This document shows, piece after piece, positions 1,745 to 15,732 of a stretch of 64,000 bases of DNA. The position numbers and the translations under genes are program-made. Location: NCBI GenBank assembly GCA_948466335.1, contig CAOKAE010000002.1:156029-220028 (forward strand). Reading direction: 5' to 3'. The notes under the pieces are model-generated. The model was not told the origin of the DNA. It searched no databases and was given only the letters and a program-made list of their open reading frames with translations. This DNA is from an uncultured Coriobacteriia bacterium (GTDB lineage: Bacteria; Actinomycetota; Coriobacteriia; Coriobacteriales; QAMH01). Within the stretch, counting starts at the first letter, position 1; every line of letters starts with the position of its first letter.

Positions 1745-2188
1745 TCATTCGTCGGTGATATCGAGGAGTTCGAGTTCGTACTCGAGGGTCTTGCCGGCGA
1801 AGGGGTGGTTGAAGTCGACCTGGATGAAGTCCTCGGTGGCCTTCGTGCAGATGGCGGGAATTCGTTGCTGCGAGACGGGATTGACCCAGCTACCCACGAA
1901 GCCCTCGTAGATTTCGTCGCCATTGGGAAAGTCGCGGCGCAGGAAGCGCTGCACGCCCGCCGGGTCATGCTCGCCGTAGGCCCTCGCGGGCTCGATCACC
2001 ACGGTGCGCGTCTCGCCGAGTTCCATGTCATAGAGCGCCTCGTCGATGCCGCGGATGACCTCCCCCACGCCCATGCGAATGGTGGTGGGTTCGTTCCAGC
2101 AGATATCTTCGGGAGGCTGGCCCTGCACGCCGCCGCGATAGCGCAGGTGCGCCACCTTCCCCGAGCGCTCGGTATTCGGAAAAGCCAT
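1745..2188 (-). CDS. FKBP-type peptidyl-prolyl cis-trans isomerase, SlyD-like
   Basis: This is a 147-residue cytoplasmic prolyl isomerase/chaperone of the SlyD branch. The FKBP fold is recognisable at the N terminus (KVAHLRYRG, then GVGEVIRGIDEALYDMELGE). The family hallmark AYGEHDP precedes the inserted chaperone flap, and the protein closes with VDFNHPFAGKTLEYELELLDI. It lacks the His/Cys-rich metal-binding tail of E. coli SlyD. The start at 2188 is chosen because AAGGAGG lies five bases upstream; a longer reading frame to 2215 would put that ribosome site inside the gene. It lies downstream of the molybdoenzyme pair on the same strand, so a role in its folding is possible but unproven. Confidence 0.9.
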   Translation of the reverse strand: MAFPNTERSGKVAHLRYRGGVQGQPPEDICWNEPTTIRMGVGEVIRGIDEALYDMELGETRTVVIEPARAYGEHDPAGVQRFLRRDFPNGDEIYEGFVGSWVNPVSQQRIPAICTKATEDFIQVDFNHPFAGKTLEYELELLDITDE

Positions 2189-2243
2189 GCCAGCCTCCTT
2201 ACGGCTGCAGGGCACCGCATGACGCGACGCCCCGCTCTCGTTC

Positions 2244-2606
2244 CTAATCTCGTAGCTTCTCGTAGGGCTTGTACACCGGCGTGAAGATAACCTGGCGCTT
2301 CGTGCCGTCCATCTTCTTGGCCAGCTCGCACACCGACCCGTAGGTCATCACGTTTGCCAGGCAGTGGTGCACGCAGATGGGCTCGCGGCCACGGCTCGTG
2401 CGGTCGATGCACAAGTCGCACAGGTCGCTCGGCACCGGAATCTTGTTCCAGTTGTAATGGCCGGGTTCGATCTCCCACGGTCCGTCATCGAGCACGCGGA
2501 TGCCCCACTTGCCCACCGGGTAATCGTGCTCTTCCTTGCATGACACCTCGCACGACTGGCAGCCCGTGCAGAGCTCGTAATCGATCAGCAGTCCCATTGC
2601 CTCCAT
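2244..2606 (-). CDS. 4Fe-4S ferredoxin-type electron-transfer subunit of a molybdoenzyme
   Basis: This 120-residue protein is the small iron-sulfur partner of the oxidoreductase encoded directly upstream, whose stop codon lies only two bases before this start. Cysteine motifs CTGCQSCEVSC near residue 15, CDLCID near residue 65 and a later CVHHC fit the short DmsB/NrfC-like two-cluster type, not the ~200-residue four-cluster version. It would pass electrons to or from the catalytic subunit in the cytoplasm; there is no signal peptide or membrane anchor. A second ATG three codons in is a possible alternative start. A close homologue occurs at 50254-50577. Confidence 0.9.
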   Translation of the reverse strand: MEAMGLLIDYELCTGCQSCEVSCKEEHDYPVGKWGIRVLDDGPWEIEPGHYNWNKIPVPSDLCDLCIDRTSRGREPICVHHCLANVMTYGSVCELAKKMDGTKRQVIFTPVYKPYEKLRD

Positions 2607-2608
2607 GG

Positions 2609-4990
2609 CTACCTCAACTCCCCGAATTTGTCCTGGATGAGCTGCATGTCCGTGTCGAAGTTCTCATCCGTGCCCTCGACGTTGCAGAGCATGCACTTGA
2701 ATGGCGCGCCGAATCCCAGCTTGCCCACGTGGAAGTTGGGAATGAGGTTGTTGATGTTCGAGCGGCACACGCCGTAGTTGTGCGGTGCGTTGCCGTCCTC
2801 CTCCGGGAACCACCAGCCGTGCTGCGCGTGAATCACGTCGGGCTTCACCGACACCGTGAGCTTGGCCTTGAGGTACGCCTCGCCGAACTGGTTGAACACG
2901 CGGCACCACTGGCCGTCGACAACACCGAGCTTCTTGGCAGTCTCGGGATTGATCTCGACGAGCGGGTTGGGATTGAGCTCGCGCAGACGCGGAATCTGGC
3001 GATGCTCCGAGTGGAAGAACGCGTAGGTGCGCGCGCCGGTGGTGAGCACGAACGGATAGTCCTCCAGAAGCTCCGGCGTGCTGATGGGGCTGAAGTCCGG
3101 CTCCTCGTAGTACGGCAGCGGGTCATCGCCGAACTGCTGGAATCCCAGGTTGTAGAGCTCGACGCGACCCGTGGGTGTGTTGAAGCCGGGGGCGCCGTCG
3201 GGGCGCATGAGGCCCTTCTCGTACTTGTAGTACTCGTTCTTGCTCTGGATGCACACCTGCTCGCGCAGCTCCTCGAACATGCGGCTCTTGCCAAAGCGCA
3301 GGAACTGCAGCAGGTCGTAGTAGCTATCGAATTCCTCGAAGCGCTTGGGATTGAGGCGCTTGCCCAGGATGTAGAGCAGCTCGAGGTCGCCTCGGCAGTC
3401 ACCTTCGTCGACGCACTTGTTCTGCGTGCCGAAGTACAGCGGTGCCGAGCCGTAGGCGGCGGCGACCGTGCTGTCACGCTCGACCACCGTGGCCAGCGGC
3501 AAGACGATGTCGCAGACCGCCTGAATCGACGGCGTCATGAAGCAGTCGAAGCCGATGACGAACTCGAGCGAACGGTTGATGGCCGCCTCCCAGCGCTTGG
3601 GCTCGGCCGAGGTGCAGGCCAGCAGGTTGTTGCCGGCAAAGGCGCCGATGCGCAGCGGGTACGGCTCGTCGGTCTCCATGCAGCGCAGCGTGAGGTCGGC
3701 ATGGGAGTTCTGGCTCATGCCGCAGTAGGCCGGGTATTCCTTGAGGCCGATCATCTTGCCGCGCAGCTCGTCGTCATCGAGAGCCATGTAGGGCATATAC
3801 TCGTCGTCTTCCTCGGTGTCGGCGTCGAGTGCCACGGCACCGCCGGTGGTGATCTGGCCACCGGGGCGGTCGATGTTGCCGGTGATGGCCATGAGGGCGA
3901 TGATGCACTGCGCCTGCTGCATGCCATTGGTCTTCTGGTCGGTCGCGAGGCCCCACTGGATCGTGGCGGCCTCGGCGTTGGCGTACAGGCGGGCGGCGCC
4001 GATGATGTCCTCGGCGGGAACGCCGCAGATCTCGGCGGCTTTCTCGGGCGGCATCGTTGCCACGCGCTCGGCGAGCTGCTCGAAGCCGTAGCACCACTTC
4101 TCGACGAAGTCGTGGTCGTAGAGTCCCTCGCGAATGATCACGTCGAGCATCGCCATGCCGATGGCCGTATCGGTGCCGGGGCGCAGCTGCAGATGGTAGG
4201 CGGCACGCGTCGTGAGCCAGTTCACGCGCGAGTCGACCATGATGAGCTTGCTGCCACGCTTCATGAGGTCGATGACCGCATGACCGAACGCGCCGTCCGG
4301 GTTCGAGACCGTCGGCACCTTGCCCCACAGCACGACGGCTTCGGGGACGTGGTACTCGGGATCATCGTAGCGACCGGGCAGGCAGCCCGCGTAGTCCATC
4401 TCGGGATACACCAGGCCGGCCGACATGGTGCCGGCGGCCAGACGCGGGAAGTAGCACGCATAGCCTGACTGCGTGTAGCATGCGTTGGGCGTCTGCCACA
4501 CCATGGCGGTGTAGGTCATGCACGATACGCCGCCCTCACGACCGGTGCCGCCGAAGTTCACGAAGCTTTCCTTGCCGTACTTGCCCGTGATCTCCGTGTA
4601 GCGCTCCTCGATGAGGTCGAGTGCTTCATCCCAGGTGATCTCCTCCCACGCATCCGCCTGGCCGCGCTTGTCGCGGTCGCGCTTCATCGGATGCAGGATG
4701 CGGGAGTTGTTGTACTCGTAGTCCTTGAGCGCGATGCAGCGCACGCACAGACGGCCCTGGGTGACGGGATGGTTCTCGTCGCCCTCGACCTTGACGAGAC
4801 GTCCGTTCTCGTCCGTGTAGAGCTTGAGTCCGCAGCCAACCGGGTGACAGCCCGGCGGTGACCACACGCAGCTCCTGGTGACGGTCAGCCCCGTGTCCTC
4901 GTCGGTGAATCGCCAGGGCTTGCCCAGGTCGTTCACGTCGGAGAGGCTGTCCAGCTTGACGGCTGGTGACGCAGTCTTTCTCAACGCCAT
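2609..4990 (-). CDS. Molybdopterin-dependent oxidoreductase, DMSO-reductase superfamily (catalytic subunit)
   Basis: This is a 793-residue enzyme carrying a bis-molybdopterin cofactor. An N-terminal [4Fe-4S] site is formed by Cys48, Cys53, Cys82 and Cys85 (C-x4-C-x28-C-x2-C), followed by ITWDEALDLI. Cys179 in GYACYFPR aligns with Cys172 of the paralogue at 50593-52887 and is a candidate metal ligand. The C-terminal dinucleotide-binding domain is visible (LTTGARTYAFFHSEHRQ, then HGWWFPE). There is no Tat signal, so it acts in the cytoplasm. The start at 4990 follows a GAGAGGAG site; the frame extends to 5095 without a good site. The layout resembles Eggerthella/Gordonibacter catechol dehydroxylase or acetylene-hydratase-like loci; that is inference, and the substrate is unknown. 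A divergent PucR-like regulator probably controls it. Confidence 0.92.
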   Translation of the reverse strand: MALRKTASPAVKLDSLSDVNDLGKPWRFTDEDTGLTVTRSCVWSPPGCHPVGCGLKLYTDENGRLVKVEGDENHPVTQGRLCVRCIALKDYEYNNSRILHPMKRDRDKRGQADAWEEITWDEALDLIEERYTEITGKYGKESFVNFGGTGREGGVSCMTYTAMVWQTPNACYTQSGYACYFPRLAAGTMSAGLVYPEMDYAGCLPGRYDDPEYHVPEAVVLWGKVPTVSNPDGAFGHAVIDLMKRGSKLIMVDSRVNWLTTRAAYHLQLRPGTDTAIGMAMLDVIIREGLYDHDFVEKWCYGFEQLAERVATMPPEKAAEICGVPAEDIIGAARLYANAEAATIQWGLATDQKTNGMQQAQCIIALMAITGNIDRPGGQITTGGAVALDADTEEDDEYMPYMALDDDELRGKMIGLKEYPAYCGMSQNSHADLTLRCMETDEPYPLRIGAFAGNNLLACTSAEPKRWEAAINRSLEFVIGFDCFMTPSIQAVCDIVLPLATVVERDSTVAAAYGSAPLYFGTQNKCVDEGDCRGDLELLYILGKRLNPKRFEEFDSYYDLLQFLRFGKSRMFEELREQVCIQSKNEYYKYEKGLMRPDGAPGFNTPTGRVELYNLGFQQFGDDPLPYYEEPDFSPISTPELLEDYPFVLTTGARTYAFFHSEHRQIPRLRELNPNPLVEINPETAKKLGVVDGQWCRVFNQFGEAYLKAKLTVSVKPDVIHAQHGWWFPEEDGNAPHNYGVCRSNINNLIPNFHVGKLGFGAPFKCMLCNVEGTDENFDTDMQLIQDKFGELR

Positions 4991-5137
4991 GTCCCACTCC
5001 TCTCGTTCAAAACGCACGGCAATTCGCCATAGGCCAAGCATATGGACGGGAACGACCGCAGAGAAGCTATCGCGTGGTGCCGTATGAAGGGGCAAGTGCG
5101 AACGGGGCGACCAATTGCGACATCTTTCGAACTCTCA

Positions 5138-5145
5138 GTACGGAT
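5138..5145. promoter_or_regulatory. Extra GTACGGAT half-site in the divergent intergenic region
   Basis: A third copy of the GTACGGAT word that forms the palindrome at 5235-5255 lies about 100 bases away, nearer the molybdoenzyme gene. This is the spacing expected if one regulator contacts both divergent promoters. Confidence 0.45.
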
Positions 5146-5180
5146 TTTCCGAGGATTTGCGGTCTTGGAGTTCGGACAAA

Positions 5181-5209
5181 TGGGCATGTTTTGAGGTGAA
5201 GGCTATACT
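5181..5209 (+). promoter_or_regulatory. Predicted sigma-70 type promoter of the PucR-like regulator gene
   Basis: TGGGCA (5181-5186) and TATACT (5204-5209) are separated by exactly 17 bases, with 4/6 and 5/6 matches to consensus. The predicted transcript would start near 5216, upstream of the palindrome at 5235-5255. Confidence 0.5.
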
Positions 5210-5234
5210 TTTGCCAAACGGCATGGGCGATTCA

Positions 5235-5255
5235 ATCCGTACCCTGCGTACGGAT
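5235..5255. promoter_or_regulatory. Perfect inverted repeat, probable operator of the PucR-like regulator
   Basis: ATCCGTAC, five bases, then GTACGGAT: 8-bp perfect arms just downstream of the predicted promoter and 21 bases before the regulator start codon. The position suits negative autoregulation. Confidence 0.6.
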
Positions 5256-5276
5256 ACCGACCGGAGCGGAGGCCAC

Positions 5277-6509
5277 ATGTTTCTGAGCATGGACATACTG
5301 GCGGGAGACCTCGCGCAATGGAATCCCGTCGCGCACGTGCATGAAGCGGATACGAGCAGGCAAATCCGCTACGTGACGCCGGCCGGGACACTCAAGCTCG
5401 ATGACGTCTCCGTGCTCTACGCCACAGACGCACGGGGGCTCTCGGACTGCGCGCGCCGGGCGGCCCGTGGCGCCAACCTGCTATGCGCGGGCACACCCGA
5501 CGAGGATGCGCTACGCGCGTGCGATGCGCTCAACGTACTCGTGCTGGATGTGCCCGAAGGTGAATTCGACTTGGCGCTCAAGGACTGCGCCGAGGCCATC
5601 GCCTGGTATGCGGACGGCTTCACGAACCTCGCCGACGCGGTCGAGCGCGGCGACGAGGAGGCGATGCGCCGCGCAGCCACGCTCCTGCAATATTGCCTGC
5701 ACGGAGACTCAGCGCAGACCGACGACCCGAGCGCCCTGGCCGAGCAACTCAACTTGCTCCTGCATCGCAACATCACCTCGTGGCAGCTGCTGGAAGACAC
5801 CATCGCCGATTGGGGGTGGGACCTGCTCGACGAATACCTGTGTGTGACGAGCACCATTCCCGACGGGACGTTTCGCTCGATGCTGACGGCCATCCAACCC
5901 GAGACATCGGGCAAGCCGCCCGCACAGGTATGCCTGCCGCAGGAGGAGTACCTGGTGGTGGTCGTGAACCTGACGCACTTCGGGACGGGCTATCGCGAGG
6001 CGGCACGCGCCATCGCGGCCAAGCTACACGGGCTTTCGAAGGAGGCGCGCATCGGGGCAAGCAACCCGTTCAGCGAGCTGCAGGACCTTTACTACTACGG
6101 CCAGCAGGCCAAAAGCGCCGTGCAGATGGGCAGCGCCTTGAATTGCGACGAGGAACTGTCGTTCTTCCACGACCGCTTCCTCGACTTCGTGGCCCTGCGC
6201 CTGCTGGAGGCATGCCCGCCCACCACGTTGTTTCCACCAGGCTACAGCCGCCTGCGCAACTACGAGCACGGGCGCGGGCGCACCGGCTCGCTGTCGCACT
6301 TCCTCGATAGCTACATCGCGCACGATTTCCAAATGAAGCCCACGGTCGCGGCCGAGTTCTGCTCGCGCACGACGGCGTTCGACAAGCTGCGCAAGATCAA
6401 GCAGATCACGGGCATGGACCTGGACGATCCCAACACGCGCGCCGCCTTGCGCCTGGCAACCCACGCCATACGGCTGTCGAAGCTCTCGCCAAGCCAACCG
6501 GCGAAATGA
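5277..6509 (+). CDS. PucR-family transcriptional regulator, divergent from the molybdoenzyme operon
   Basis: This 410-residue cytoplasmic regulator ends in the PucR-type helix-turn-helix: FLDSYIAHDFQMKPTVAAEFCSR, then LRKIKQITGMDLDDPNTRAALRLA, which matches the family's 'xxAAxxLxVHRNTLxYRLxRIxExxGxDLxDPxxR' pattern. The N-terminal ~330 residues are of no recognised family, with a possible small-molecule sensor region. The start at 5277 is set by GGAGG five bases upstream; the frame opens at 5115 but has no comparable site. Its divergent position from the molybdoenzyme pair and the repeated GTACGGAT words between them suggest it controls both itself and the enzyme. The inducer is unknown. Confidence 0.82.
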   Translation: MFLSMDILAGDLAQWNPVAHVHEADTSRQIRYVTPAGTLKLDDVSVLYATDARGLSDCARRAARGANLLCAGTPDEDALRACDALNVLVLDVPEGEFDLALKDCAEAIAWYADGFTNLADAVERGDEEAMRRAATLLQYCLHGDSAQTDDPSALAEQLNLLLHRNITSWQLLEDTIADWGWDLLDEYLCVTSTIPDGTFRSMLTAIQPETSGKPPAQVCLPQEEYLVVVVNLTHFGTGYREAARAIAAKLHGLSKEARIGASNPFSELQDLYYYGQQAKSAVQMGSALNCDEELSFFHDRFLDFVALRLLEACPPTTLFPPGYSRLRNYEHGRGRTGSLSHFLDSYIAHDFQMKPTVAAEFCSRTTAFDKLRKIKQITGMDLDDPNTRAALRLATHAIRLSKLSPSQPAK

Positions 6510-6535
6510 GACAACCTCCCTGAGACGTTGTCTCA
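6507..6535. repeat. GAGACAA hairpin, family A (copy 1), likely bidirectional terminator
   Basis: TGAGACAAC at 6507-6515 is the exact reverse complement of GTTGTCTCA at 6527-6535, with an 11-base loop. The left arm contains the regulator's own TGA stop codon. It sits between two convergent genes. Confidence 0.7.
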
Positions 6536-6569
6536 AAACATCGACATCTCTTTCGTTTTGGCCGCCTTT

Positions 6570-6598
6570 TGAGACAAGGTGCCTGAGACGTTGTCTCA
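6570..6598. repeat. GAGACAA hairpin, family A (copy 2), likely terminator
   Basis: TGAGACAA at 6570-6577 pairs with TTGTCTCA at 6591-6598, enclosing GGTGCCTGAGACG. The right arm overlaps the stop codon of the AAA+/methyltransferase gene (TGA, 6598 to 6596). A 15-base palindromic core, TGAGACGTTGTCTCA, is shared exactly with copy 1 at 6521-6535. Confidence 0.7.
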
Positions 6599-8842
6599 CT
6601 TACGAGCGTTGAGAGCGATGGCCTCGAAGCGGACGGTCTCGGTTGAGGGGACGGTTTCGACGACCGTGGTCGACGTGAAGCCCCGATCGGCATCGACCGG
6701 ATAGCTATCGACGACCTCCACGTCCTCGAAGCCCGCCGCCGCCATCAACGCGAGGATCTCGTCTTCGGGAAGCGCCGCCTGGATGCTGTTGCCGATGCCG
6801 CGGGCCTTCTCGACCACCGCCTTGTCACGGGGTACGTCCGAGACGATCGTCTCGCATATGAGCAGGCCTCCCGGCTTGAGCACGCGATGGAACTCCTCGA
6901 GGGCCCTGCCCTGGTCGTAGAGCAAGGTCATCACGTTGTTGATGTAGACGACGTCAACCGTCTCCTCGCCAATGCCGGCCTCCATGAGGTCCTCGGGATA
7001 GGCGACCTTGAAGTCCATGTTGTTGGCCTTGAGGTTGTTCTTGCGCCATGCGCGCTCGGAATCCTCGATGGCCTCGGCGATGTAGCTCGGCGACCAATCC
7101 ACGCCAATGACGCGACCCGTGCCGCCCACCTTCGCGCTGAACTTGAAGCAGCCCTTACCGCGCCTGCACGCCACGTCGAGGACGGTCTTGCCCTTGAGGG
7201 CAGCGGCATCGGGCAGCGTCATCTTGCTCATGGACGCAAAACCGTACTCGAACTGCTTGCCGCCGTAGTACTCCCCGATCGTCTGACCGCTACCGGCTGC
7301 CGTCTCGCCAGGCCGCACCGCCTCCTCGGCATTGATGTCAAGCGTGCGCACGCGCTCGGACAGGCTGCGGCGGTGCTCGTCGACCTGCAGCTCGTCGTTA
7401 TGCGCGTAGTAGGCCTCGTTGCCGTAATGGGCGATGAACTGCGTGGTCGTCTGGCGTGTCGTGAGCTCGGCCACCATGACGAGCATCTCGCGCCCATTGC
7501 CCCAGGCCTCCTCGAGAAACTTGAAGGCGTTGGTCATCTGGCCATCGGCCGTCTTGACGAGCGGGTCGATCGCGTTGACCTCCTCGCGATACGCATCGCT
7601 GATGGTCGCGAAGGCCGCCTCACCCGCCACCGTGCCGGTGAGCCTGCACTGCTCCATGAGGCGCTTGAGCTTGGCGATGACGAGACCTTCCTTGCGCTCG
7701 TAGCTGGGCTTGGCCGTGCCGGACGCGATCTTGCGGGCCAGCGCCTGCTCGCGCGAGCCCGTGACGATGCCAACGGTCTCGTCGATGGACGCGCCATCGA
7801 GCAAGGCGGGCTTGGCATCACGTAGGATGTCGCGCAGCGAGATGACGACCTCCTCCTGTTCGAGGGCATGGGCACAGGCATTGGCGACCGCGTCGAGCAT
7901 GAGGCCGAGCAGGGCCACGCGCTCATCGAACTCGGCGCCACGGGCGCGGTTGATGATGTCGAGTCCCGCCTCGCCGGAGAGGATGTTCATGATCTGGTAG
8001 TCGGAACGGTACTTGTCGAAGAGGTTGTAGTACACCGAAAAGCTGTCGGCGATGTCGTCGTCGCGCAAGAACTGCCCGATGAGGTCGCGGCTAATCGGTT
8101 TGCCCATCTCCTCGTAGAGCGCGATGGCCTCGGCCAGGTCCTCCCAACCGCGGGCGGTGACGAAGCTCTTGCCACCACCGGGCTTGGACTGCACGAGGTA
8201 GAAGCAATCGGGCTTGGCCTCGAGGAAGGTCGTGACCGCCGGATGGATGCCCTTTTGCGTGGCATAGCGCTTCCACGCGGCGTATTCGGGCTCCACCTCG
8301 ATCTCGCGCAGGCGGTCGAGCGTGACGATGTCGAACTCGTGCACCGACTTGTTGTACTCGGGCGGATTGCCCGCGCACACGATAATCCAGTCATGGGGGA
8401 TGCGATGGCGTCCGAAGGTCTTGAACTGCAGGAACTGGAGCATGGATGGGTAGAGCGTCTCGGAAACGCAGTTAATCTCGTCGAGGAAGAGGATGCCGGC
8501 ACGCAGCCCCGTCTCGCCCATGTAGTCGTAGATGGACGACACGATCTCGCTCATCGTGTACTCGGAGGAGTCGTACTCGAAACCCTCGAACTCGTTGTGC
8601 ACGATGCGCGGCAAGCCGAGAGCGCTCTGGCGCGTGTGATGCGTCATCGAGTAAGAGACGATGCCAATCTGCAGTTCCTGGGCGATTTGCTCCATGATGG
8701 CGGTCTTGCCGATGCCCGGCGCGCCGATGAGGAAGATGGGGCGCTGGCGTGCGGGATTGATCTTGTACATCCCCGCATCGTCCTTGAGGAGGTAGGCCTC
8801 GACGGAGTCCTTGATCTGTTCCTTTGCGTCGGCAATGTTCAT
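6596..8842 (-). CDS. MoxR-type AAA+ ATPase fused to a class I SAM methyltransferase
   Basis: This 748-residue protein joins two normally separate enzymes. Residues ~1-300 form an AAA+ ATPase with Walker A GAPGIGKT (40-47), Walker B ILFLDEIN (117-123) and an arginine-rich DRLREIE segment; MoxR-type ATPases remodel partner complexes with a VWA protein. Residues ~300-520 are an alpha-helical lid or linker. Residues ~545-748 are a Rossmann methyltransferase: motif I reads VLDVACRRGKG in place of the usual VLDxGCGxG, followed by VIGVDWS, VDVVYINN and VLKPGGLLICE. It is the last gene of a four-gene operon, 27 bases after the VWA gene. The fused domain is homologous to the stand-alone methyltransferase opening the operon. 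The methylation target is unknown. Confidence 0.9.
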   Translation of the reverse strand: MNIADAKEQIKDSVEAYLLKDDAGMYKINPARQRPIFLIGAPGIGKTAIMEQIAQELQIGIVSYSMTHHTRQSALGLPRIVHNEFEGFEYDSSEYTMSEIVSSIYDYMGETGLRAGILFLDEINCVSETLYPSMLQFLQFKTFGRHRIPHDWIIVCAGNPPEYNKSVHEFDIVTLDRLREIEVEPEYAAWKRYATQKGIHPAVTTFLEAKPDCFYLVQSKPGGGKSFVTARGWEDLAEAIALYEEMGKPISRDLIGQFLRDDDIADSFSVYYNLFDKYRSDYQIMNILSGEAGLDIINRARGAEFDERVALLGLMLDAVANACAHALEQEEVVISLRDILRDAKPALLDGASIDETVGIVTGSREQALARKIASGTAKPSYERKEGLVIAKLKRLMEQCRLTGTVAGEAAFATISDAYREEVNAIDPLVKTADGQMTNAFKFLEEAWGNGREMLVMVAELTTRQTTTQFIAHYGNEAYYAHNDELQVDEHRRSLSERVRTLDINAEEAVRPGETAAGSGQTIGEYYGGKQFEYGFASMSKMTLPDAAALKGKTVLDVACRRGKGCFKFSAKVGGTGRVIGVDWSPSYIAEAIEDSERAWRKNNLKANNMDFKVAYPEDLMEAGIGEETVDVVYINNVMTLLYDQGRALEEFHRVLKPGGLLICETIVSDVPRDKAVVEKARGIGNSIQAALPEDEILALMAAAGFEDVEVVDSYPVDADRGFTSTTVVETVPSTETVRFEAIALNARK

Positions 8843-8869
8843 GGCCCTGATCCTTTCTTCGAGACCGTC

Positions 8870-10555
8870 TTATCGCGTATGGGCGCGCTCGGCGCTCTTG
8901 AACCGGTTGATGCCGTCCTCGTCGATGACCACGCGCATGGCCCACGGAGGCACGTTGGGGAGATGCGTCTCGCCGTTGTCGACGAAAACGAACGCCACAT
9001 CGTAGGGCGGCATCTTGTCCGGGTAATAACCCAGGCCGTCCGTGAAGTACAGCAATCCCTGCAGGTTCTCGAGCTCACCGCGGTCCTGCAGGTCGGACAC
9101 ATAATCGAACACGGGCCTGAAATCGGTGCCGCCAAACCCGCGCACGTAGAAGCTGGCGAGGTAATCCTTGAGCTGGCTGGGGCTCGTGATCTTGGTGTCG
9201 GACTGCACCTTCGCATCGCATTGGATGATGTGGATGTTCACCTTGCTGCCGAACTCCTCGGACTGCATGAGGATGTCGAAGGTATGCTCGATGAAGCGCT
9301 TGCATAGCTGTCCGCTCACGGATTCGGACGTGTCGATGGCGATGACGAAATCGCGCACCGTCTTGATCTCCTTGTATTCGAGCGGCTCGACGAGCGGCAT
9401 GTTGCCGTAGAGCTCGAGGCCGTAGGTGTAGAAGATGTAGTCGAACTCGTCATCATTGATGCGCATGTCCTCGGACACCGTGGCAAAGCGCCGCAGAAAG
9501 TCGCTGTAATCGTAGGTCTTGCGGTTGGCGATGGCGAGGCTCGAGATCAGATCGCGCGCCTCGTCGCCCCATTCCTTGGAGAAGGTCTCGAGGTTCATCT
9601 CGATCTGGCGGCTGATTTCCTCCCACTCCTTCTCCTCGCGAGCGGTCTCGTCGTTGACCTGCTCCTCGACGTCGTTATCGCTGCTCGTGCCCTCGAGCTC
9701 GTCGTTGGCCGTGTCGAGTCCCGCGCCGTCGACGTTGCTGCTCGCATCCTCGCCTTCGTCGTCTTCGGATGCCTGCTCGTCATCGCCGTCGTCCGAGCCC
9801 TCCTCCATCTTCTGGTCGGAGGAGTCGCTTTGGCTCACGTCCATCTCGCTTGTCGATTGCAGATTCTGGGCGCTCGTGTCCGCCGATTCCTCGGCGATGT
9901 CGTCTTCCTCGCCGATCTCCTCGATGTCGCCGGGCTTCTCCTCGCCCTCCTGGTCGTTGAAGGCCGGCCAGGATTCGTGGTTGTCACGCTCGAACAGCGC
10001 CTGCATCTCGACGATGTTGCTCTTCGAGTAGTTGAAGTAGGTGGCCCCCTCGGGGTTCTTCATGATGCGGTCGAAGAGGTGGTAGAGCTTGGCCGGCATG
10101 AACGCGCCGACCGTCTGCTTGATTTGCGAGAGATAGTGCTCGCGGTCGGCATCGGACTGGCTCGTGAAACGCGTCGCACACATCTCCATGGCGACGCTCT
10201 CGACAATGACGTCGCATGCCAGCGACCATGCCTCGCGGTTGGCAAGATGGTCGCGGTCGTAGGGATGACGGAAGATGCAGTGCAAGACGAGGTGCAGGTA
10301 GTCACGCACCGTCTCGTCGAAGGACTCCTCGAAGCGCGCGAGCACGCTATAGGGCTCGAAGTAGATGTTCTTCCCGTCCGTCGAAAGCGGATAGCGCGCC
10401 CGCGCATGCACCGGCACAAGTTCCATACGCCAAAGCGCCAGGTCGAGGAAGCGAAACTTGAGCATGAGCTGGACGCGGCATTCCTCGATGATGTCGGTTG
10501 CGAGGCGGGCGGCGCGATTGAAGCGTTCGGTCTTCTCGTCGGTGATCTGCGCCAC
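8870..10555 (-). CDS. VWA-domain protein with N-terminal metallopeptidase-like domain (DUF2201/VWA-like)
   Basis: This 561-residue cytoplasmic protein is the expected partner of the MoxR ATPase. The N-terminal ~190 residues resemble the putative metallopeptidase domain of VWA-like proteins, but the usual HExxH reads HLVLH (88-92), followed by FRHP, so peptidase activity is doubtful. Residues ~200-310 are an extremely acidic, Ser-rich disordered linker. The C-terminal VWA domain has a complete MIDAS metal site: DTSES (408-412), GGTDF (Thr477) and FTDG (Asp506). The start is GTG with GGGAGGG seven bases upstream. It begins 13 bases after the LRR gene and ends 27 bases before the ATPase gene. 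Confidence 0.85.
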   Translation of the reverse strand: MAQITDEKTERFNRAARLATDIIEECRVQLMLKFRFLDLALWRMELVPVHARARYPLSTDGKNIYFEPYSVLARFEESFDETVRDYLHLVLHCIFRHPYDRDHLANREAWSLACDVIVESVAMEMCATRFTSQSDADREHYLSQIKQTVGAFMPAKLYHLFDRIMKNPEGATYFNYSKSNIVEMQALFERDNHESWPAFNDQEGEEKPGDIEEIGEEDDIAEESADTSAQNLQSTSEMDVSQSDSSDQKMEEGSDDGDDEQASEDDEGEDASSNVDGAGLDTANDELEGTSSDNDVEEQVNDETAREEKEWEEISRQIEMNLETFSKEWGDEARDLISSLAIANRKTYDYSDFLRRFATVSEDMRINDDEFDYIFYTYGLELYGNMPLVEPLEYKEIKTVRDFVIAIDTSESVSGQLCKRFIEHTFDILMQSEEFGSKVNIHIIQCDAKVQSDTKITSPSQLKDYLASFYVRGFGGTDFRPVFDYVSDLQDRGELENLQGLLYFTDGLGYYPDKMPPYDVAFVFVDNGETHLPNVPPWAMRVVIDEDGINRFKSAERAHTR

Positions 10556-10568
10556 GCCTCGGCCCTCC

Positions 10569-12857
10569 CTACAAGTCGAAGTCCACGGCGCCGTGCTGGA
10601 ACATGCGCCGCTTTATCTCGAGCAGGTACCCCGTCATCGCCGCATCCTGCAGCTTGCCGATGTGGTCGATGACGCCGAGGAGATTATCCTTGTTCAGCAT
10701 ATCCAGTTCAATAAGCTCATCAATTAATGAGCGGTCATCGTGACGCGCGATGGCCTCGCACACCTCCTCGAGGTTCTTCGTGAGGACCTGCGTGAGCATG
10801 ATCTTGTTGGTGCTGCTCATGAGGACGGGATCGGCGAGGCGCTCGATCGCGAGCTTGGCCTGGCCGTACACGTCGAAGTCATCGCGCGCGGTGCTCGCCT
10901 TCTTGTCGAATTCGTGCATGTTGGCGATGGCGCTGTCGTAGTGCTTGAAGATGCGCGCCAGGTCGACCGAACTGCTCAGGTTGAAGGCGAGCTGGATCTC
11001 GTGCACGCTGCGCGGCGCGTCGGGGAAGTAGAAGTCGAAGCTTGCATGGCCCTCGTGGGGCTCGTCCAGGTCGATGTGAAGGTGCTCCACGAAGCAATCG
11101 AGGCTCAGGCCCCGCATGCCGACGCGGCGGACGCGGTCGCTCAGGTACAGCTCGCGCAGATGCCGTGCGCCGCCGAAGGCGTAGGGGTCGATGACGGTCA
11201 CGTCCTCGGGAACCCTCACGCTCTCGGTGCCGTCGGCATAGACGACGACGTGGGAGCCGCCCTCGTCGTGACGCTCGACGAGCAGACCGCAAACGGAGTA
11301 GAAGCGCTCGTTTTCGCCGTCGGCGCCAACGCTCGTGAGCGACGGGGCTCCGTCTCCGTTGTGGGCGCCATGGGTGATGAGCGCGATGTTACCCAGACGC
11401 TTCAGGCCGCGGGGAATGAAGACGCGCGACAACGAGGTGTCGAGAAACGCCTCGTCACCCACGTCCTCGAGCGTCGAGGGAAAGTCGGCAATGGCGAGCT
11501 CGCGACAGTCGCGAAACGCCCCGTCCCCGATGCGCAGCAATCCTTCGGGCAAGACGACCTTGGCGATGTGGGCATGATGCGAGAAGGCATGCGCTTCGAT
11601 CTCGACCGTGCCCGGCTGCACCGCATACTCCGTTACCTTGTCGTCGAGCAGGCGTACATAGTGCTTGCCCTCAGGCGTGTTGCGATATAGGCCGCCCTCG
11701 CGGTCAATCTCGAGAATGCCACTAGGCGCGATGGAAAAGCCGGCATCGTCACCGGAGAACGTGAGCTTGGTGTCTGCCGCGATGCTGTTGCCCAGCGTCT
11801 CGAGCGTCGCGGGCGCACGCAACGTCTCGATGTCCGTGCCCGTGAAGGCGTCGTCACCGATGAAGACAAGGCCCTCGTCAAGCGTGACCTGCGTGAGCCT
11901 GCGGCAACGGAAGAACGCGCGCTCGCCGATGGTACGCAGGTCGCGCGGAGCGACGAAGGTCTCGAGCCCCGAGTAGGAGAACGCGTAGTCCTCGATGGTG
12001 GTGATGGTGCCGGGCAAGTCGACCGCGAAGAGCTCCGCTCGATTCGCGAAGGCCTTCTTCTCGATGACCTCGCAACCATCCGGCACCGCGTAGCGCTCGC
12101 AGGAAAGGGCCAGCACGCGCAGGTGCGTGCCCTCGTGCGCGAAGATGGCCTTGCCGTCAGTCGTGATGTGGAGATTGTCATCGTCTATGTATAGGTGCTC
12201 GACATTGCCCTGGGCAAACATGCCCGGAATGAAGTCATAGGTGCCAGGCCCGATGGTGAGCGTGCGGATATCGCCCTCGTCGAAGATGCTGGGCGCGAGA
12301 CGGCGCAGCATGCCGGGAAGCGCGAGCTCGGTAAGCCTGCGGCAACCACGCACCCACGACGAGTCATAGGTGTCCACATTACGCGGCAGCACGAGGCGCT
12401 GCAGGTTCTTGCAGGAGCGAAACGCGCAGTTGCCGATCTTCTCGATCTGCGGCGAGCAGATGATCTCGCGCACCGAGTCCAGGTACGAGCAGGCGTCGAC
12501 CGCGAGCTCTGCCACGGGCTTTTCCTCGACAAACGCGGGAATCTCGAGGACCTCGTCGTCCGTCTTGCATCCGATGATGCGCACGTACTCGTCGCGGACC
12601 GTCACGTACTCCCAGAGCGTGCCACCGTCCGTCATGAATGCGCGCTCCTCGGAGCACGCGGCCTCGTCCTCGCGGATGAGACGGTCGCGTTCCTCCTGGC
12701 TGGAGGCGATGACCTCCTCCATCTGCTCCATCTGCTCGACCGTGTAGTGTCCATCGCTCAATGCCATGACGGCCACTTCCTTGATTCTCGCAAATTCCTC
12801 GTTCTCGTCCGCATCGAGACCGCCGTTTGCAACCGGCATCTCCCTACCCCAACCCAT
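10569..12857 (-). CDS. Cytoplasmic leucine-rich-repeat protein (BspA/LRR_5 type)
   Basis: This 762-residue protein has no signal peptide, unlike most BspA-type LRR proteins. After ~85 charged residues it carries many LRR_5 units of the form 'IGxxAFxxCxxLxxVxLPxxLxxI' (IGNCAFRSCKNLQRLVLP, IGERAFFRCRRLTQVTLDEG, IGDGAFRDCRELAIADFP), to about residue 590. A helical C-terminal region of ~150 residues follows, of no recognised family. It lies between the methyltransferase (two bases upstream) and the VWA gene, which suggests it is the recognition or scaffold subunit of the complex. The start is ambiguous: the first ATG lies right after the upstream stop with weak ribosome signal, and a second ATG at 12839 abuts GGGAG. 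Confidence 0.85.
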   Translation of the reverse strand: MGWGREMPVANGGLDADENEEFARIKEVAVMALSDGHYTVEQMEQMEEVIASSQEERDRLIREDEAACSEERAFMTDGGTLWEYVTVRDEYVRIIGCKTDDEVLEIPAFVEEKPVAELAVDACSYLDSVREIICSPQIEKIGNCAFRSCKNLQRLVLPRNVDTYDSSWVRGCRRLTELALPGMLRRLAPSIFDEGDIRTLTIGPGTYDFIPGMFAQGNVEHLYIDDDNLHITTDGKAIFAHEGTHLRVLALSCERYAVPDGCEVIEKKAFANRAELFAVDLPGTITTIEDYAFSYSGLETFVAPRDLRTIGERAFFRCRRLTQVTLDEGLVFIGDDAFTGTDIETLRAPATLETLGNSIAADTKLTFSGDDAGFSIAPSGILEIDREGGLYRNTPEGKHYVRLLDDKVTEYAVQPGTVEIEAHAFSHHAHIAKVVLPEGLLRIGDGAFRDCRELAIADFPSTLEDVGDEAFLDTSLSRVFIPRGLKRLGNIALITHGAHNGDGAPSLTSVGADGENERFYSVCGLLVERHDEGGSHVVVYADGTESVRVPEDVTVIDPYAFGGARHLRELYLSDRVRRVGMRGLSLDCFVEHLHIDLDEPHEGHASFDFYFPDAPRSVHEIQLAFNLSSSVDLARIFKHYDSAIANMHEFDKKASTARDDFDVYGQAKLAIERLADPVLMSSTNKIMLTQVLTKNLEEVCEAIARHDDRSLIDELIELDMLNKDNLLGVIDHIGKLQDAAMTGYLLEIKRRMFQHGAVDFDL

Positions 12858-12859
12858 CT

Positions 12860-13618
12860 CTAGCGGAACTGCGCGATGTCGTCACGCAGGAATGCCTGGT
12901 AGTCAAAGCCGCCAAGCTTCTCGACGCTTACCGTGCAGGAGATGAAGCCGGGATCTTCGGGCGTGATGACGAAGGGGGCGTGGCCCTCCTCGGTGGCCGC
13001 CGCGTCGACGGCGATGGGACGGGATTCGATTGTCTCGTAGGTGGGCATGTCCATGCCGGCACCGTGCAGCCAGCGCGCGAAGTCCTTGCGAAACGGCGCC
13101 GCCTGAACCGCGTTGCCGATGGAGCGGGCCTCGGCCATGATCTCGCGGTCGCGGGGGCGTATCGCGAGGGCCGTCTGGCACACGAGCTTGCCCGCGGGCT
13201 TGAGCAGGCGTCCGATGAGCTTGATGACATGGGCCGGGTCGCAGAAGAGGTTGAGGGCGCTGTTGACGTAGACGTAGTCGACGCTTCCCTCTTCGATGCC
13301 GATTTGATCGATGAGCTCGGGGTAGGCGACGATGAACTCCATGTTGCTCGCGGCAAGGCCGTTCTTCTGCGCGGCATGGGCCTCGCCTTCGCGCGCACTC
13401 TCGACGAAGGGCTCGCGCCAATCGACGCCGAAGACGCGACCGGCGGGACCAACGTGATCGGAGAGCTTGTAGACGCCCAGGCCCTTGCGACAGGCCAGGT
13501 CGAGCGCCACCTGATCGTCAAGACCGCCGGGAACGAACATCCCGCACCGGCTGTCGAGACCACCGCTTTCGGGTAGCTGGGCGTAATGGGTTGCAAGATC
13601 GTCGAGTGAGAACGCCAT
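12860..13618 (-). CDS. Class I SAM-dependent methyltransferase, paralogue of the one fused to the ATPase
   Basis: This 252-residue methyltransferase opens the AAA+/VWA/LRR operon. Motif I is ALDLACRKGLG and motif II VFGVDWREP. Further matches to the fused domain include NGLAASNMEFIVAYPE, VDYVYVN, LLKPAGKLVCQT, RPRD and ARSIGNAVQAAP, which aligns with ARGIGNSIQAAL. The shared unusual DxACRxGxG motif shows the two belong to one subfamily. The start at 13618 is set by AGGAGG seven bases upstream. The open frame continues to 13768 but would run through the tRNA-Thr gene and its terminator, so that extension is rejected. Substrate unknown. Confidence 0.85.
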   Translation of the reverse strand: MAFSLDDLATHYAQLPESGGLDSRCGMFVPGGLDDQVALDLACRKGLGVYKLSDHVGPAGRVFGVDWREPFVESAREGEAHAAQKNGLAASNMEFIVAYPELIDQIGIEEGSVDYVYVNSALNLFCDPAHVIKLIGRLLKPAGKLVCQTALAIRPRDREIMAEARSIGNAVQAAPFRKDFARWLHGAGMDMPTYETIESRPIAVDAAATEEGHAPFVITPEDPGFISCTVSVEKLGGFDYQAFLRDDIAQFR

Positions 13619-13632
13619 GGATGCCTCCTGGA

Positions 13633-13662
13633 ACAAAAAAGGCCCGCGACGCGGGCCTTTGC
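13633..13662 (-). terminator. Intrinsic terminator downstream of tRNA-Thr
   Basis: On the minus strand, GGCCCGC-GTC-GCGGGCC is followed by TTTTTT. It separates the tRNA from the methyltransferase operon. That operon must use a weak promoter here or read-through, since only about 14 bases separate the T-run from its start codon. Confidence 0.85.
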
Positions 13663-13668
13663 TTTCGA

Positions 13669-13744
13669 TGGTGCCGACGAAGAGACTCGAACTCTTGACC
13701 CCCGCATTACGAGTGCGGTGCTCTACCAGCTGAGCTACATCGGC
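13669..13744 (-). tRNA. tRNA-Thr (anticodon CGT)
   Basis: This is a 76-base cloverleaf with encoded CCA. The acceptor arm is GCCGATG paired with CGTCGGC, the D arm starts GCTCAGCTGGTA, the anticodon stem is CCGCA/TGCGG with loop CTCGTAA, and the T arm is AAGAG-TTCGAGT-CTCTT. The CGT anticodon reads ACG threonine codons. A terminator follows directly. Confidence 0.96.
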
Positions 13745-13861
13745 CTGGCGCGTTTCGCGCAGTTGCACAGTCTATCAGAATTGCACGCGCTTGTGCGAAC
13801 GAGTTTGGGAGAGGTGCCGAATGTGACAAATTCGCCCGAGCGATTGCCACAGGCTCCTCAT

Positions 13862-13890
13862 TTGACATGATGCTATGTATTGCATAGTAT
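13862..13890 (+). promoter_or_regulatory. Promoter with embedded PadR operator
   Basis: TTGACA (13862-13867, perfect) and TAGTAT (13885-13890) are 17 bases apart. The spacer and -10 carry CTATG-TATTG-CATAG (13873-13887), a perfect inverted repeat where a bound PadR dimer would block RNA polymerase. This implies autorepression. Confidence 0.7.
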
Positions 13891-13905
13891 TATGCAACAG
13901 GAGGT

Positions 13906-14223
13906 ATGATGGATGCTCAAATGAAACGCGGGTTTTTGGATGCGTGTGTGCTCGCCAGCATGGCCAGCGGCGAGTCGTACGGATACCAGATCATCAAGGA
14001 CGTGCCCGATTCGCTTGGCATGAGCGAATCGACTCTTTATCCCCTGCTCAAGCGGTTAGAGACAAAAGGGCTCATCACGGTGCGCAAGGCCGAGCACAAC
14101 GGACGGCTGCGCAAGTACTACTCGCTCACCGACGAGGGACGCGAAACGCTGACGGAGTTTCTCGATTCGCGGCAGGAGATATGCGCGGTGCTCGATTACG
14201 TCGCCGAGGCACTTGACAAATAG
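13906..14223 (+). CDS. PadR-family transcriptional repressor
   Basis: This 105-residue winged-helix regulator shows the classic PadR pattern: LDACVLASMASGESYGYQIIKDV, then SESTLYPLLKRLETKGLI and RKYYSLTDEGRE. AGGAGG ends close to the first ATG, so translation may begin at the second ATG (13909), which gives better spacing. It is followed after 50 bases by a DUF1700/HAAS membrane protein. This pairing is common, with PadR sensing and repressing the membrane-protein operon. Its operator and promoter overlap directly upstream. Confidence 0.93.
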   Translation: MMDAQMKRGFLDACVLASMASGESYGYQIIKDVPDSLGMSESTLYPLLKRLETKGLITVRKAEHNGRLRKYYSLTDEGRETLTEFLDSRQEICAVLDYVAEALDK

Positions 14224-14273
14224 ACCAGATACGAAGACCTAGCTGCGATGACGTGAGCTACTTGGAGGATGAA

Positions 14274-15221
14274 ATGAACATCAGGGAATACGAAGCCCAG
14301 CTGACGAAGCTTTTAGGAGAACTGCCGAGCAAGGAACGGGAAGAGGCCGTGTCCTTCTACATAGAGACGCTGGCCGACCGCATAGATGACGGCGCAAGCG
14401 AGGCCGATGCGGTGGCATCGCTTCCCACACCCGAGGAGGCGGCGCAGGCAATCCTGAACGACCGTCCAACGGACGAGCAGAAGGACTTCGACCTCACGGT
14501 ACGCAAAGGCGGTGGCACCTGCGACGATGACGAAGCGGGGCCCGATCGCGAACGATTCATCGACCGGCTGAGGCAAAGAAGGCTCTCCGTCCTGGAATGG
14601 GTCGCGGTCATCGTCACCTCGCCGTTGTGGCTTTCGATTCTCGCCGTCATTCTCGCGCTCGTCGTCGTGCTCCTTGCTGTCTATGTGGTTATCTGGGTGC
14701 TCATCGCCTGCGTCTGGATAATCGGAGCGGCACTTGTGGCGGCCGCGCCGATGGCGCTCCTCTTCGTCATTTGGGGTTTGCAGCTAGGCTACTTCCCGTA
14801 CGCTCTCGTCAACGTCGGCTATGGCCTGTTCGGTTTCGGCGCGGGCATGTGGGTCATGCGAGGCGCACTGAAGCTGACCCGCGCGTTCCTGTCGTGGCAG
14901 AAGCGAAACATCAAGGTCCGCATGCGCAGACACCGCGATGCGCCGGATGACGAGAAGCTGTTTGGGGACGAGGATGAAGATAAGTCCTCTTCCGTCGAAA
15001 CGACGTCGGCGCCTCCCTCGAAGTGCTGCGGCTTCTTCAGGGTATGCACCGGCCTTGTCATTGCAGGCGTTGCCTGCGTAGCCATCGGCTTTCTGGCGTC
15101 CGGCATGGACTGGCGCGTATTCCTCACGAGCCTCTACACGGAAGGCAACATGTACATCGGCGGTGTGCAGGTGGATGATCCGAGCGCCCTCCTGTTCGCG
15201 CCCGTGTACCTGGGCCGCTGA
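14274..15221 (+). CDS. DUF1700/HAAS-domain membrane protein
   Basis: This 315-residue protein has an N-terminal HAAS/DUF1700 helical domain (MNIREYEAQLTKLLGELPSKEREEAVSFY, then LPTPEEAAQAIL, roughly residues 1-60). An acidic linker follows, then about four or five membrane segments in two blocks around residues 105-185, a charged cytoplasmic loop, and a last hydrophobic segment near 260-280. The start at 14274 has GGAGG six bases upstream, better than the earlier in-frame codon at 14253. It is encoded with PadR, as in many Firmicutes and Actinobacteria. The DUF4097 adhesin-like partner often found with this pair is absent here but occurs at 62204-63127. Role unknown; likely envelope stress or membrane homeostasis. 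Confidence 0.85.
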   Translation: MNIREYEAQLTKLLGELPSKEREEAVSFYIETLADRIDDGASEADAVASLPTPEEAAQAILNDRPTDEQKDFDLTVRKGGGTCDDDEAGPDRERFIDRLRQRRLSVLEWVAVIVTSPLWLSILAVILALVVVLLAVYVVIWVLIACVWIIGAALVAAAPMALLFVIWGLQLGYFPYALVNVGYGLFGFGAGMWVMRGALKLTRAFLSWQKRNIKVRMRRHRDAPDDEKLFGDEDEDKSSSVETTSAPPSKCCGFFRVCTGLVIAGVACVAIGFLASGMDWRVFLTSLYTEGNMYIGGVQVDDPSALLFAPVYLGR

Positions 15222-15349: not shown

Positions 15350-15732
15350 GGGGGTGACTGGTTTCGACAGGATAGTTTGAGCGAAGGGCAGCAGGCCGTG
15401 GTCTCCTCGCCACGTTAAACAGGGGTAAAGCCAATTAACTGGCAAAGTTGTTTCTTTCAAGGGTGCGCAGGCTCAGCCTGTCGCCCTGGCTGCCTAATTT
15501 AGGTTCAGCCCTCCCAACCAGTTGCTAAAGCTCTGGCATCTGCACGGGATCATTTTAAGGAGCTTGCTCCCGGGGACGTAGTCGGTATGCCCCGGGCTAA
15601 GATTGAACCGGCGGGAAGCCGTTCTCGTTTGTCGGTGTACCAGACGGTTTCCTACTTGAACATCGACTGAGCTTGGAGACACCTTTCGCAGGATTATCGT
15701 GGACCGGAGTTCGATTCTCCGCACCTCCACCA
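15350..15732 (+). ncRNA. ssrA: Transfer-messenger RNA
   Basis: The 5' end GGGGGTG pairs with CACCTCC before the encoded ACCA at the 3' end. The start carries the conserved GACTGGTTTCGACAG, and the 3' tRNA-like arm ends in GGAGTTCGATTCTCC. The tag frame reads GKVVSFKGAQAQPVALAA and stops at TAA; the last five residues are the usual protease signal, while the exact resume codon (GGC here) is inferred. With SmpB (20714-21178) it rescues stalled ribosomes and marks the peptide for degradation. Confidence 0.96.

Follow-up and report, generated by a model that had tools for sequence, protein, structure and literature searches.

The 64,000-nucleotide window analysed here (genome G000, contig C2, positions 156029-220028, from an uncultured member of the Coriobacteriia) carries a compact operon encoding a methyltransferase (MT1), a leucine-rich-repeat (LRR) protein, a von Willebrand factor A (VWA) protein, and a fusion of an AAA+ ATPase with another methyltransferase (MT) domain (AAA-MT). 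The system is best read as real, conserved and, as far as literature searches reach, undescribed, representing a variant of the MoxR/VWA couples of enzyme maturation. It is further suggested, with a likelihood that we place slightly short of even, that this MoxR/VWA-type machine, with its dedicated LRR protein and, at most Coriobacteriia loci, a fused MT, serves the maturation of molybdenum or tungsten (Mo/W) enzymes resembling acetylene hydratase and catechol dehydroxylase, above all one that lacks iron-sulfur (FeS) cysteines and is encoded about 53 kb away. Confidence is moderate in the identity of this client and low in the methyltransferase step. The suggestion is based on the conservation of LRR-VWA-AAA, the linkage of the FeS-less enzyme to this triad in 21 genomes, the fusion of a small protein, p111, to the LRR protein, the presence of an MT gene in the enzyme operon of genome G110, and the recurrence of trigger factors.

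Four minus-strand open reading frames were verified at positions 6596-13618, encoding MT1, LRR, VWA and AAA-MT with intergenic gaps of 2, 13 and 27 bases, as described in a first-pass annotation whose domain identities (MT, LRR, VWA with an intact metal-ion-dependent adhesion site (MIDAS), AAA+ with MT) were likewise borne out by Pfam and by an alignment of 68 VWA sequences. Scanning of GTDB species genomes with the VWA alignment returned at least 566 relatives, and the best 80 loci were kept, 49 from Actinomycetota (with which L077 is counted) and 31 from Bacillota; neighbouring genes in GC-rich loci were called with a codon model. The unit extends beyond one genome, and its recurrence is more than accidental. 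An AAA gene lies beside the VWA gene at 49/49 Actinomycetota and 25/31 Bacillota loci, and an LRR gene nearby at 45/49 and 25/31, respectively; in the four Actinomycetota loci with no LRR gene, the available sequence ahead of the VWA gene measures 2.1 kb at most. Fusion of the MT to AAA is seen at 29/49 Actinomycetota loci and a separate MT gene at 7/49, with 0/31 Bacillota loci showing either form. LRR-VWA-AAA is thus the unit conserved across Coriobacteriia and gut Bacillota, and its commonest form in Coriobacteriia has the AAA-MT fusion. These counts refer to loci and not to independent genomes, since some genomes recur (43 of the loci fall in 36 genomes). The AAA protein is kept into Bacillota, as judged from the alignment and from a tree of 84 rows, in which MT-bearing loci fall in an Actinomycetota clade and a seven-locus subclade (L059, L060, L061, L063, L066, L069 and L073) is devoid of MT. 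Gordonibacter-type loci have a separate MT, with a trigger-factor-like gene between AAA and MT.

The neighbours of the window's operon and of the 80 loci were clustered into families. Recurring families include a small ferredoxin-like subunit (27 loci, including the window), a bis-molybdopterin guanine dinucleotide (bis-MGD) oxidoreductase (21 loci, including the window, and 5 partial), p111 (20 loci), p91 (19), a trigger-factor-like protein (17) and an FKBP/SlyD-like protein (14, including the window), the small-subunit and oxidoreductase clusters each mixing subfamilies. Trigger-factor-like genes occur near 17/49 Actinomycetota and 2/31 Bacillota loci. This association with a Mo/W enzyme, trigger factors and peptidyl-prolyl isomerases (PPIases), which was absent from the first-pass annotation, points to enzyme maturation. 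The gene order small subunit - p91 - p111 - LRR - VWA - AAA was read by eye in 16 loci (with two extra genes in L067), and the enzyme gene precedes it wherever the contig reaches. For p111 and p91, a scan of a single representative of each gave no informative Pfam or NCBIfam family, with one match for p111 below the cut-off. In six loci from five genomes the LRR protein starts with a p111 segment (42-45% identity, E 1e-20 to 1e-24), and because of these fusions p111 is considered to belong with the machine. Gene pairs resembling DUF262/GmrSD_N were also seen near the operon in L056 (14550-16668) and in five other loci, one member having been examined with Pfam; in L150 and L153, such pairs were read by eye close to the operon of the FeS-less enzyme.

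The operon-linked orthologue of the enzyme (L056 3856-6590 and others) has its N-terminal [4Fe-4S] cysteines replaced and has lost the Molybdop_Fe4S4 match. It keeps a cysteine within the stretch CYTQSGxxCYxPR, which we take to be the metal ligand of the enzyme family. The enzyme pairs with a small cysteine-stripped ferredoxin; 15 of the 27 small subunits have four or fewer cysteines, and those of L070 and L071 have five but show no cluster motifs in the alignment. The FeS-less orthologues, among those listed, are 73-100% identical to the query, the next group reaching at most 60%. Judged from their sequences, the FeS-less enzyme and its pseudoferredoxin appear to be an unexpected and conserved pair in their own right.

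The linkage was quantified across 138 Eggerthellaceae genomes, with the FeS-less orthologue defined by rows of at least 76% identity and seven candidates per genome scored in nearly all. At least 34 of the 138 genomes hold the orthologue, and in 21 of these it lies less than 10 kb from the VWA gene on the same strand, with gaps of 3.3-5.4 kb. Both the enzyme (in its at least 34 genomes) and the closer type of VWA gene are present in 26 genomes, the enzyme only in 8, the VWA gene only in 11, and neither in 93 (Fisher p 8e-13, uncorrected for relatedness). In the window's own genome, the FeS-less orthologue is located at C2 107291-109684 (84% over most of its length; L142 8909-11673), and behind it come genes for the pseudoferredoxin, p91, p111 and a trigger factor. 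The last of these is borne out by Pfam, which detects no Fe-S domain in the enzyme or in its small subunit. Each of ten genomes searched has two to five Trigger_N genes, the enzyme-linked copy not being the best-scoring one in G000. A search of 11 genomes located the orthologue (at least 73% identity, partial pieces included) in G000, G001, G002, G005, G017 and G021, the same six genomes whose best VWA match reaches at least 634 bits; G004, G009 and G013, with best VWA matches of 390, 355 and 312 bits, hold no FeS-less orthologue, and G003 and G006 have neither. G021, from family f9, carries enzyme, small subunit, p91, p111 and LRR on one contig, and the enzyme operon of G110 encodes an FKBP as well as an MT whose best match stands at 57.6%.

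A role in building enzymes is also supported by loci of other content. In L117, from Bacillota, VWA-LRR-AAA lies 178 bases beyond the end of a xanthine-oxidase-family Mo enzyme that is complete with FAD, 2Fe-2S and large subunits; genes for a 180-aa protein and a trigger factor come next, and L110 shows the end of the same arrangement. In L078 (4138-14305), hypF, hypC and hypD lie directly ahead of LRR-VWA-AAA-MT.

The VWA protein matches the DUF2201 VWA-like family of Pfam at 47.9 bits (cut-off 26.4). Its MIDAS residues D408, S410, S412, T477 and D506 are invariant across all 68 aligned sequences, including that of the window, and belong to a VWA domain at about residues 398-553, ahead of which lies an acidic disordered linker (about 205-299; D+E accounts for 40% of residues 201-300). 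The N-terminal domain appears metallopeptidase-like, with H88 and H92 invariant and H97 nearly so in the same alignment; DUF2201_N (PF13203) was detected in 61 of the 68 sequences, the window's protein giving no match at E 0.01. A structure model of the protein (predicted local distance difference test (pLDDT) 77.7), of low confidence in the acidic linker, retrieved VWA folds at Z 12.6-14.8 among the matches listed, and since VWA domains filled this search no claim is made on the fold of the N-terminal domain. A comparison of the VWA profile with PDB sequences gave matches at chance level (best E 0.021; CobT 0.06). The AAA part of the fusion matches AAA_5 of Pfam at 32.6 bits (cut-off 22) and carries Walker A (GAPGIGKT) and Walker B (ILFLDE) motifs, its score against bpMoxR (21.6 bits) falling under the cut-off of 27, which leaves its place in the MoxR branch proper tentative. 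Together, the Walker motifs and the adjacent VWA protein with its MIDAS support the earlier assignment of the couple to the MoxR/VWA remodelling kind. No NCBIfam match reaches its curated cut-off for the operon proteins among the matches listed (25 of 28 for AAA-MT). In L104 (5159-6802), the tail of an MT-less AAA protein from the same family is rich in cysteine (GGCSTCTC) and is perhaps, from its sequence, a metal-binding end.

The two MTs of the window are paralogues (36% identity over 217 aa) and match Methyltransf_31 of Pfam at 61 bits (MT1) and 68 bits (AAA-MT residues 550-681). The structure model of AAA-MT (pLDDT 84.7, predicted template modelling score 0.58) was searched with Foldseek, and the best fold match of its MT domain was ArsM with bound As(III) (4fsd; E 2.2e-14, root-mean-square deviation 2.3 over 220 columns). 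The MTs thus share fold and sequence family with ArsM, from which the fused MT differs in an altered motif I (consensus CRRGxG versus the usual GxGxG) and in N and S at the positions of ArsM C174 and C224, presumably the arsenic ligands; an arsenic role was rejected because these cysteines are replaced. Neither protein reaches the curated cut-off of the ArsM family NF008823 in NCBIfam (263; 54.0 bits for MT1 and 75.7 bits for AAA-MT). MT1 is fast-evolving, with a long branch in the MT tree. In ten genomes searched, orthologue-like matches to MT1 were found in G001 (98%) and G005 (46%), with a partial match in G021 (43%), and MT1 adjoins the LRR gene only in the window's genome and its sister G001; the G005 orthologue is sited elsewhere, about 7.5 kb from another Mo-enzyme operon. 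LRR-VWA-AAA is also preceded by a separate MT in L088 and L091, at a distance of 14 bases, giving the gene order of the window. These loci carry no other MT; theirs comes after a short AAA-like gene, and the MT tree does not place it as an orthologue of MT1. That short gene (at about 6800-8180 together with the MT; annotated in L091, a fragment in L088) resembles the C-terminal part of AAA, so that, by sequence, the pair looks like a split copy of AAA-MT. The four-gene unit first proposed therefore holds for its LRR-VWA-AAA core and, in L088 and L091, for its gene order, but a fixed unit that includes MT1 was rejected given the restriction of that gene's position to the two sister genomes among those searched. 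The idea that a pair of separate MT proteins is conserved was not supported, as the MT is fused, separate or, at 31/31 Bacillota loci, absent.

AAA+ ATPases paired with VWA proteins have been implicated in the maturation of several metalloenzymes, and the maturation reading leans on two such precedents. CoxD and CoxE, an AAA+ ATPase and a VWA protein serving a molybdoenzyme, function in the maturation of the Mo-Cu CO dehydrogenase of Oligotropha carboxidovorans, according to the parts of the publications consulted (PMC4240915; PMC3471820). The triad in L110 and L117 likewise lies beside a xanthine-oxidase-family Mo enzyme, whereas the enzyme linked to it in Eggerthellaceae belongs to the bis-MGD (DMSO reductase) family. 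NorQ and NorD, a MoxR-type ring and a VWA protein with a MIDAS, mediate FeB insertion into cNOR, for which the MIDAS of the VWA partner is needed; in the sections consulted, the N-terminal domain of NorD is described as unrelated to that of CbbO, while that of the present VWA protein appears DUF2201_N-like (PMC9976466). RavA, a MoxR ATPase with the VWA partner ViaA, has been proposed, in the part of the source consulted, to help dedicated complexes mature, a metal-containing respiratory enzyme among them (PMC3893208). MoxR and vWA proteins also combine with a third component, either VMAP, iSTAND or FtsH, in ternary conflict systems, and the portion of that text consulted mentions no methyltransferase and, outside its references, no LRR (PMC7159879). 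The third component here differs, being a BspA-type LRR protein, and Pfam detected no VMAP, iSTAND or FtsH-type domain in the four operon proteins. To our knowledge, CoxD/CoxE have neither an LRR protein nor an MT fusion, RavA/ViaA have neither LRR nor MT, and NorQ/NorD have no LRR, MT or trigger factor. In the open-licence literature, judged by titles and abstract openings, there was no described system of LRR-VWA-AAA-MT composition, in agreement with the novelty first claimed for the operon; the same literature yielded no system of this sort for DUF2201, nothing joining acetylene hydratase with MoxR, no MoxR system with leucine-rich repeats, and no relevant work on Gordonibacter dehydroxylase with AAA or VWA. 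With regard to the client, a Gordonibacter-type gut dehydroxylase is, in the part of the description consulted, a small, Tat-less enzyme that has a small 4Fe-4S protein as its partner (PMC7028382). The operon-linked orthologue differs from acetylene hydratase and catechol dehydroxylase in having no [4Fe-4S] cysteines and a cysteine-stripped ferredoxin as its partner.

The machine is known here from its genes alone, that is, from gene content, conservation, linkage, fusions and residues, and its mode of action can be outlined by analogy. The AAA protein would assemble as a ring, as in its MoxR relatives, on which the VWA protein would dock in the manner of NorD on NorQ, its MIDAS, and perhaps its HxxxHxxxxH domain, holding the immature client. 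The LRR protein and p111, with which it is fused in some loci, may recruit or orient this client, and the associated folding helpers of the trigger-factor and FKBP type would act on the same protein. ATP hydrolysis might then open the client for cofactor insertion or for assembly with its ferredoxin-like partner, while the tethered MT could modify the client, its cofactor or a bound small molecule.

Several observations weigh against this maturation reading. Thirteen of the at least 34 Eggerthellaceae genomes hold the FeS-less enzyme with no adjacent VWA gene, some of them at contig ends, and in seven non-adjacent genomes (L148-L154) no triad was found within 7-10 kb either side of the enzyme; moreover, synteny within one family is not independent evidence. 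In the seven-locus MT-less subclade, only L073 adjoins such an enzyme, of another type. In the window, the sister species lacks the Mo enzyme block between AAA-MT and the next gene, and 19 places in 1.9 Mb match bis-MGD enzyme genes, so the adjacency of the window's own enzyme (2609-4936) to the operon may be recent or due to chance. The atypical motif I leaves MT activity and the use of S-adenosylmethionine uncertain. A MoeA match was found in 9/31 Bacillota genomes with the VWA gene and none in 22/31 (most being, by title, metagenome-assembled genomes of unstated completeness), and the triad therefore does not look molybdenum-specific; a general molybdenum-only role was dropped on this basis. 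In the order sample of 60 genomes, MoeA is present in 16/16 VWA-positive and 32/44 VWA-negative genomes, which supports a molybdenum link weakly at best. The same Bacillota genomes favour a general folding or quality-control machine, in which the triad, trigger factors and PPIases would remodel many or unrelated clients, with the Mo enzymes being some of these or mere neighbours. The trigger factor beside the VWA gene in two Bacillota loci and the presence of several LRR genes at some Bacillota loci, suggestive of exchangeable adaptors, are in keeping with such a role. Against it speak the linkage of one enzyme orthologue, usually single-copy, in 21 of the at least 34 genomes, the ties of p111, p91 and MT to the FeS-less enzyme operon, and the patchy distribution of the VWA gene (16/60 genomes of the order sample, the window's included), unlike that of housekeeping chaperones. 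A general machine is considered unlikely, while still deserving serious weight. That the Mo-enzyme linkage reflects nothing but gene abundance and inherited gene order has a small probability. Genomes hold up to 137 first-look candidate enzymes, which makes any nearby bis-MGD enzyme weak evidence, and an enzyme of the same family (E 1e-100) occurs in 34/36 genomes of MT-bearing and MT-less Actinomycetota alike (43/49 loci covered; the two exceptions being those of L065 and L120), so that its presence alone does not discriminate; the absence of the window's adjacent enzyme from that place in the sister fits this explanation too. The argument for maturation rests instead on the specific orthologue, a single subfamily with unique residue losses, whose linkage recurs in family f9, where G021 has enzyme to LRR on one contig, and on the p111-LRR fusions.

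The MTs might alternatively carry out a metabolic step, acting on the small molecules that the dehydroxylase-like enzymes use as substrates or cofactors, with the triad merely controlling the enzyme. Their resemblance to the small-molecule methyltransferases ArsM and UbiE, their occurrence as a separate gene in Gordonibacter-type loci and within the enzyme operon of G110, and the MFS-like transporter genes near the FeS-less enzyme in several genomes (one checked by Pfam) are consistent with this; the fusion to AAA in 29/49 Actinomycetota loci argues instead for action on or in the machine, and such a metabolic role is judged improbable. Least probable is a defence or conflict system with an LRR sensor and an MT effector, modelled on the MoxR/VWA ternary conflict systems, whose existence is reported in the part of the source consulted (PMC7159879). 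GmrSD-type genes after or near the operon in six loci could be taken in its favour, as could the LRR protein showing the lowest conservation of the core proteins in 11 of 12 comparable close pairs and the PADLOC matches to mad2 (the best, through the MT domains, E 9e-12 and 9e-13), IetA and mad8 (AAA domain) and JetC (VWA protein). The PADLOC matches, however, are confined to single common domains and give little footing to the defence role entertained at first; the chromosomal neighbourhood is conserved and contains metabolic genes, and none of the four proteins has a TIR, cyclase, kinase, nuclease or comparable effector domain by Pfam. With identities of 61-94% between close pairs, the LRR protein shows no hypervariability, and a diversifying LRR sensor was rejected.

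Gut Coriobacteriia are rich in uncharacterised dehydroxylase-like Mo/W enzymes related to those acting on diet- or host-derived catechols, for which we know of no dedicated assembly machine. Such a machine could partly explain why these enzymes are hard to produce and would offer a handle for their production, and the FeS-stripped enzyme with its pseudoferredoxin is open to direct testing. A bolder version of the maturation reading, to which only a low probability is given, holds that an AAA+ ring with its own methyltransferases and an LRR/VWA recruiter assembles an FeS-free W/Mo-bis-MGD enzyme, the ferredoxin being purely structural and methylation of the client or cofactor obligatory. If true, the machine would be the first AAA+ maturase coupled to modification, and the enzyme would represent a branch of the dehydroxylase/acetylene-hydratase family free of iron-sulfur clusters.

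Features of the operon and of its surroundings in the window are listed in the table below.

Table. Coordinates of the operon and of associated features in the window.
Feature	Coordinates	Strand	Details
MT1, standalone class I methyltransferase, ArsM/UbiE-like fold family	12860-13618	-	252 aa; Methyltransf_31
LRR, BspA-type leucine-rich-repeat protein	10569-12857	-	762 aa; LRR_5
VWA, DUF2201-type VWA protein	8870-10555	-	561 aa, GTG start; DUF2201 VWA-like
AAA-MT fusion, AAA+ ATPase and methyltransferase	6596-8842	-	748 aa
AAA+ ATPase part of fusion, residues 1 to ~500	7343-8842	-	AAA_5 over cut-off; Walker A and B
C-terminal MT domain of fusion, residues ~529-748	6596-7258	-	Methyltransf_31, 68 bits
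tRNA-Thr (CGT)	13669-13744	-	directly upstream of MT1
Terminator-like hairpin	13660-13638		between tRNA-Thr and MT1
Acetylene-hydratase/catechol-dehydroxylase-like bis-MGD enzyme	2609-4936	-	FeS cysteines intact; start codon from the gene call
Small 4Fe-4S subunit of the 2609-4936 enzyme	2244-2606	-	Pfam just under cut-offs; cysteine motifs in alignment
FKBP-type peptidyl-prolyl isomerase	1745-2215	-	FKBP_C, 45 bits; FKBP neighbour cluster

The enzyme at 2609-4936 has acetylene hydratase (2e7z) as its nearest solved relative (best PDB match, E 4.8e-75; next 1.3e-49) and matches Molybdopterin, Molydop_binding and Molybdop_Fe4S4 of Pfam. It is a different paralogue, about 44% identical to the FeS-less type, and a possible client of the machine. 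A second bis-MGD enzyme of the same family is encoded at 50593-52638 (minus strand; 38% to the former), and a PucR-type regulator (HTH_30) at 5223-6509 (plus strand), between the Mo enzyme and AAA-MT, belongs to the block that is absent in the sister. The LRR protein scores 172.8 bits against LRR_5, its other Pfam match being LRR_8 only, and its description as signal-less derives from an N-terminus judged by eye, without a predictor.

A promoter scan of positions 5000-14500 found no minus-strand site 5' of MT1; with the tRNA-Thr gene and the hairpin just upstream, the operon may be transcribed by read-through from the tRNA. The palindrome TGAGACAACGTCTCA occurs twice, just 3' of the AAA-MT gene (6521-6535) and at its end (6584-6598). 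It was found at nine places in the genome at one mismatch or fewer, against none for a reversed control, several of them paired 63-77 bases apart, and may represent an operator or else a small repeat dispersed in the genome. Further along, a full-length tmRNA (15350-15732, plus strand) was identified by Rfam at 143.8 bits and was not reported by ARAGORN.

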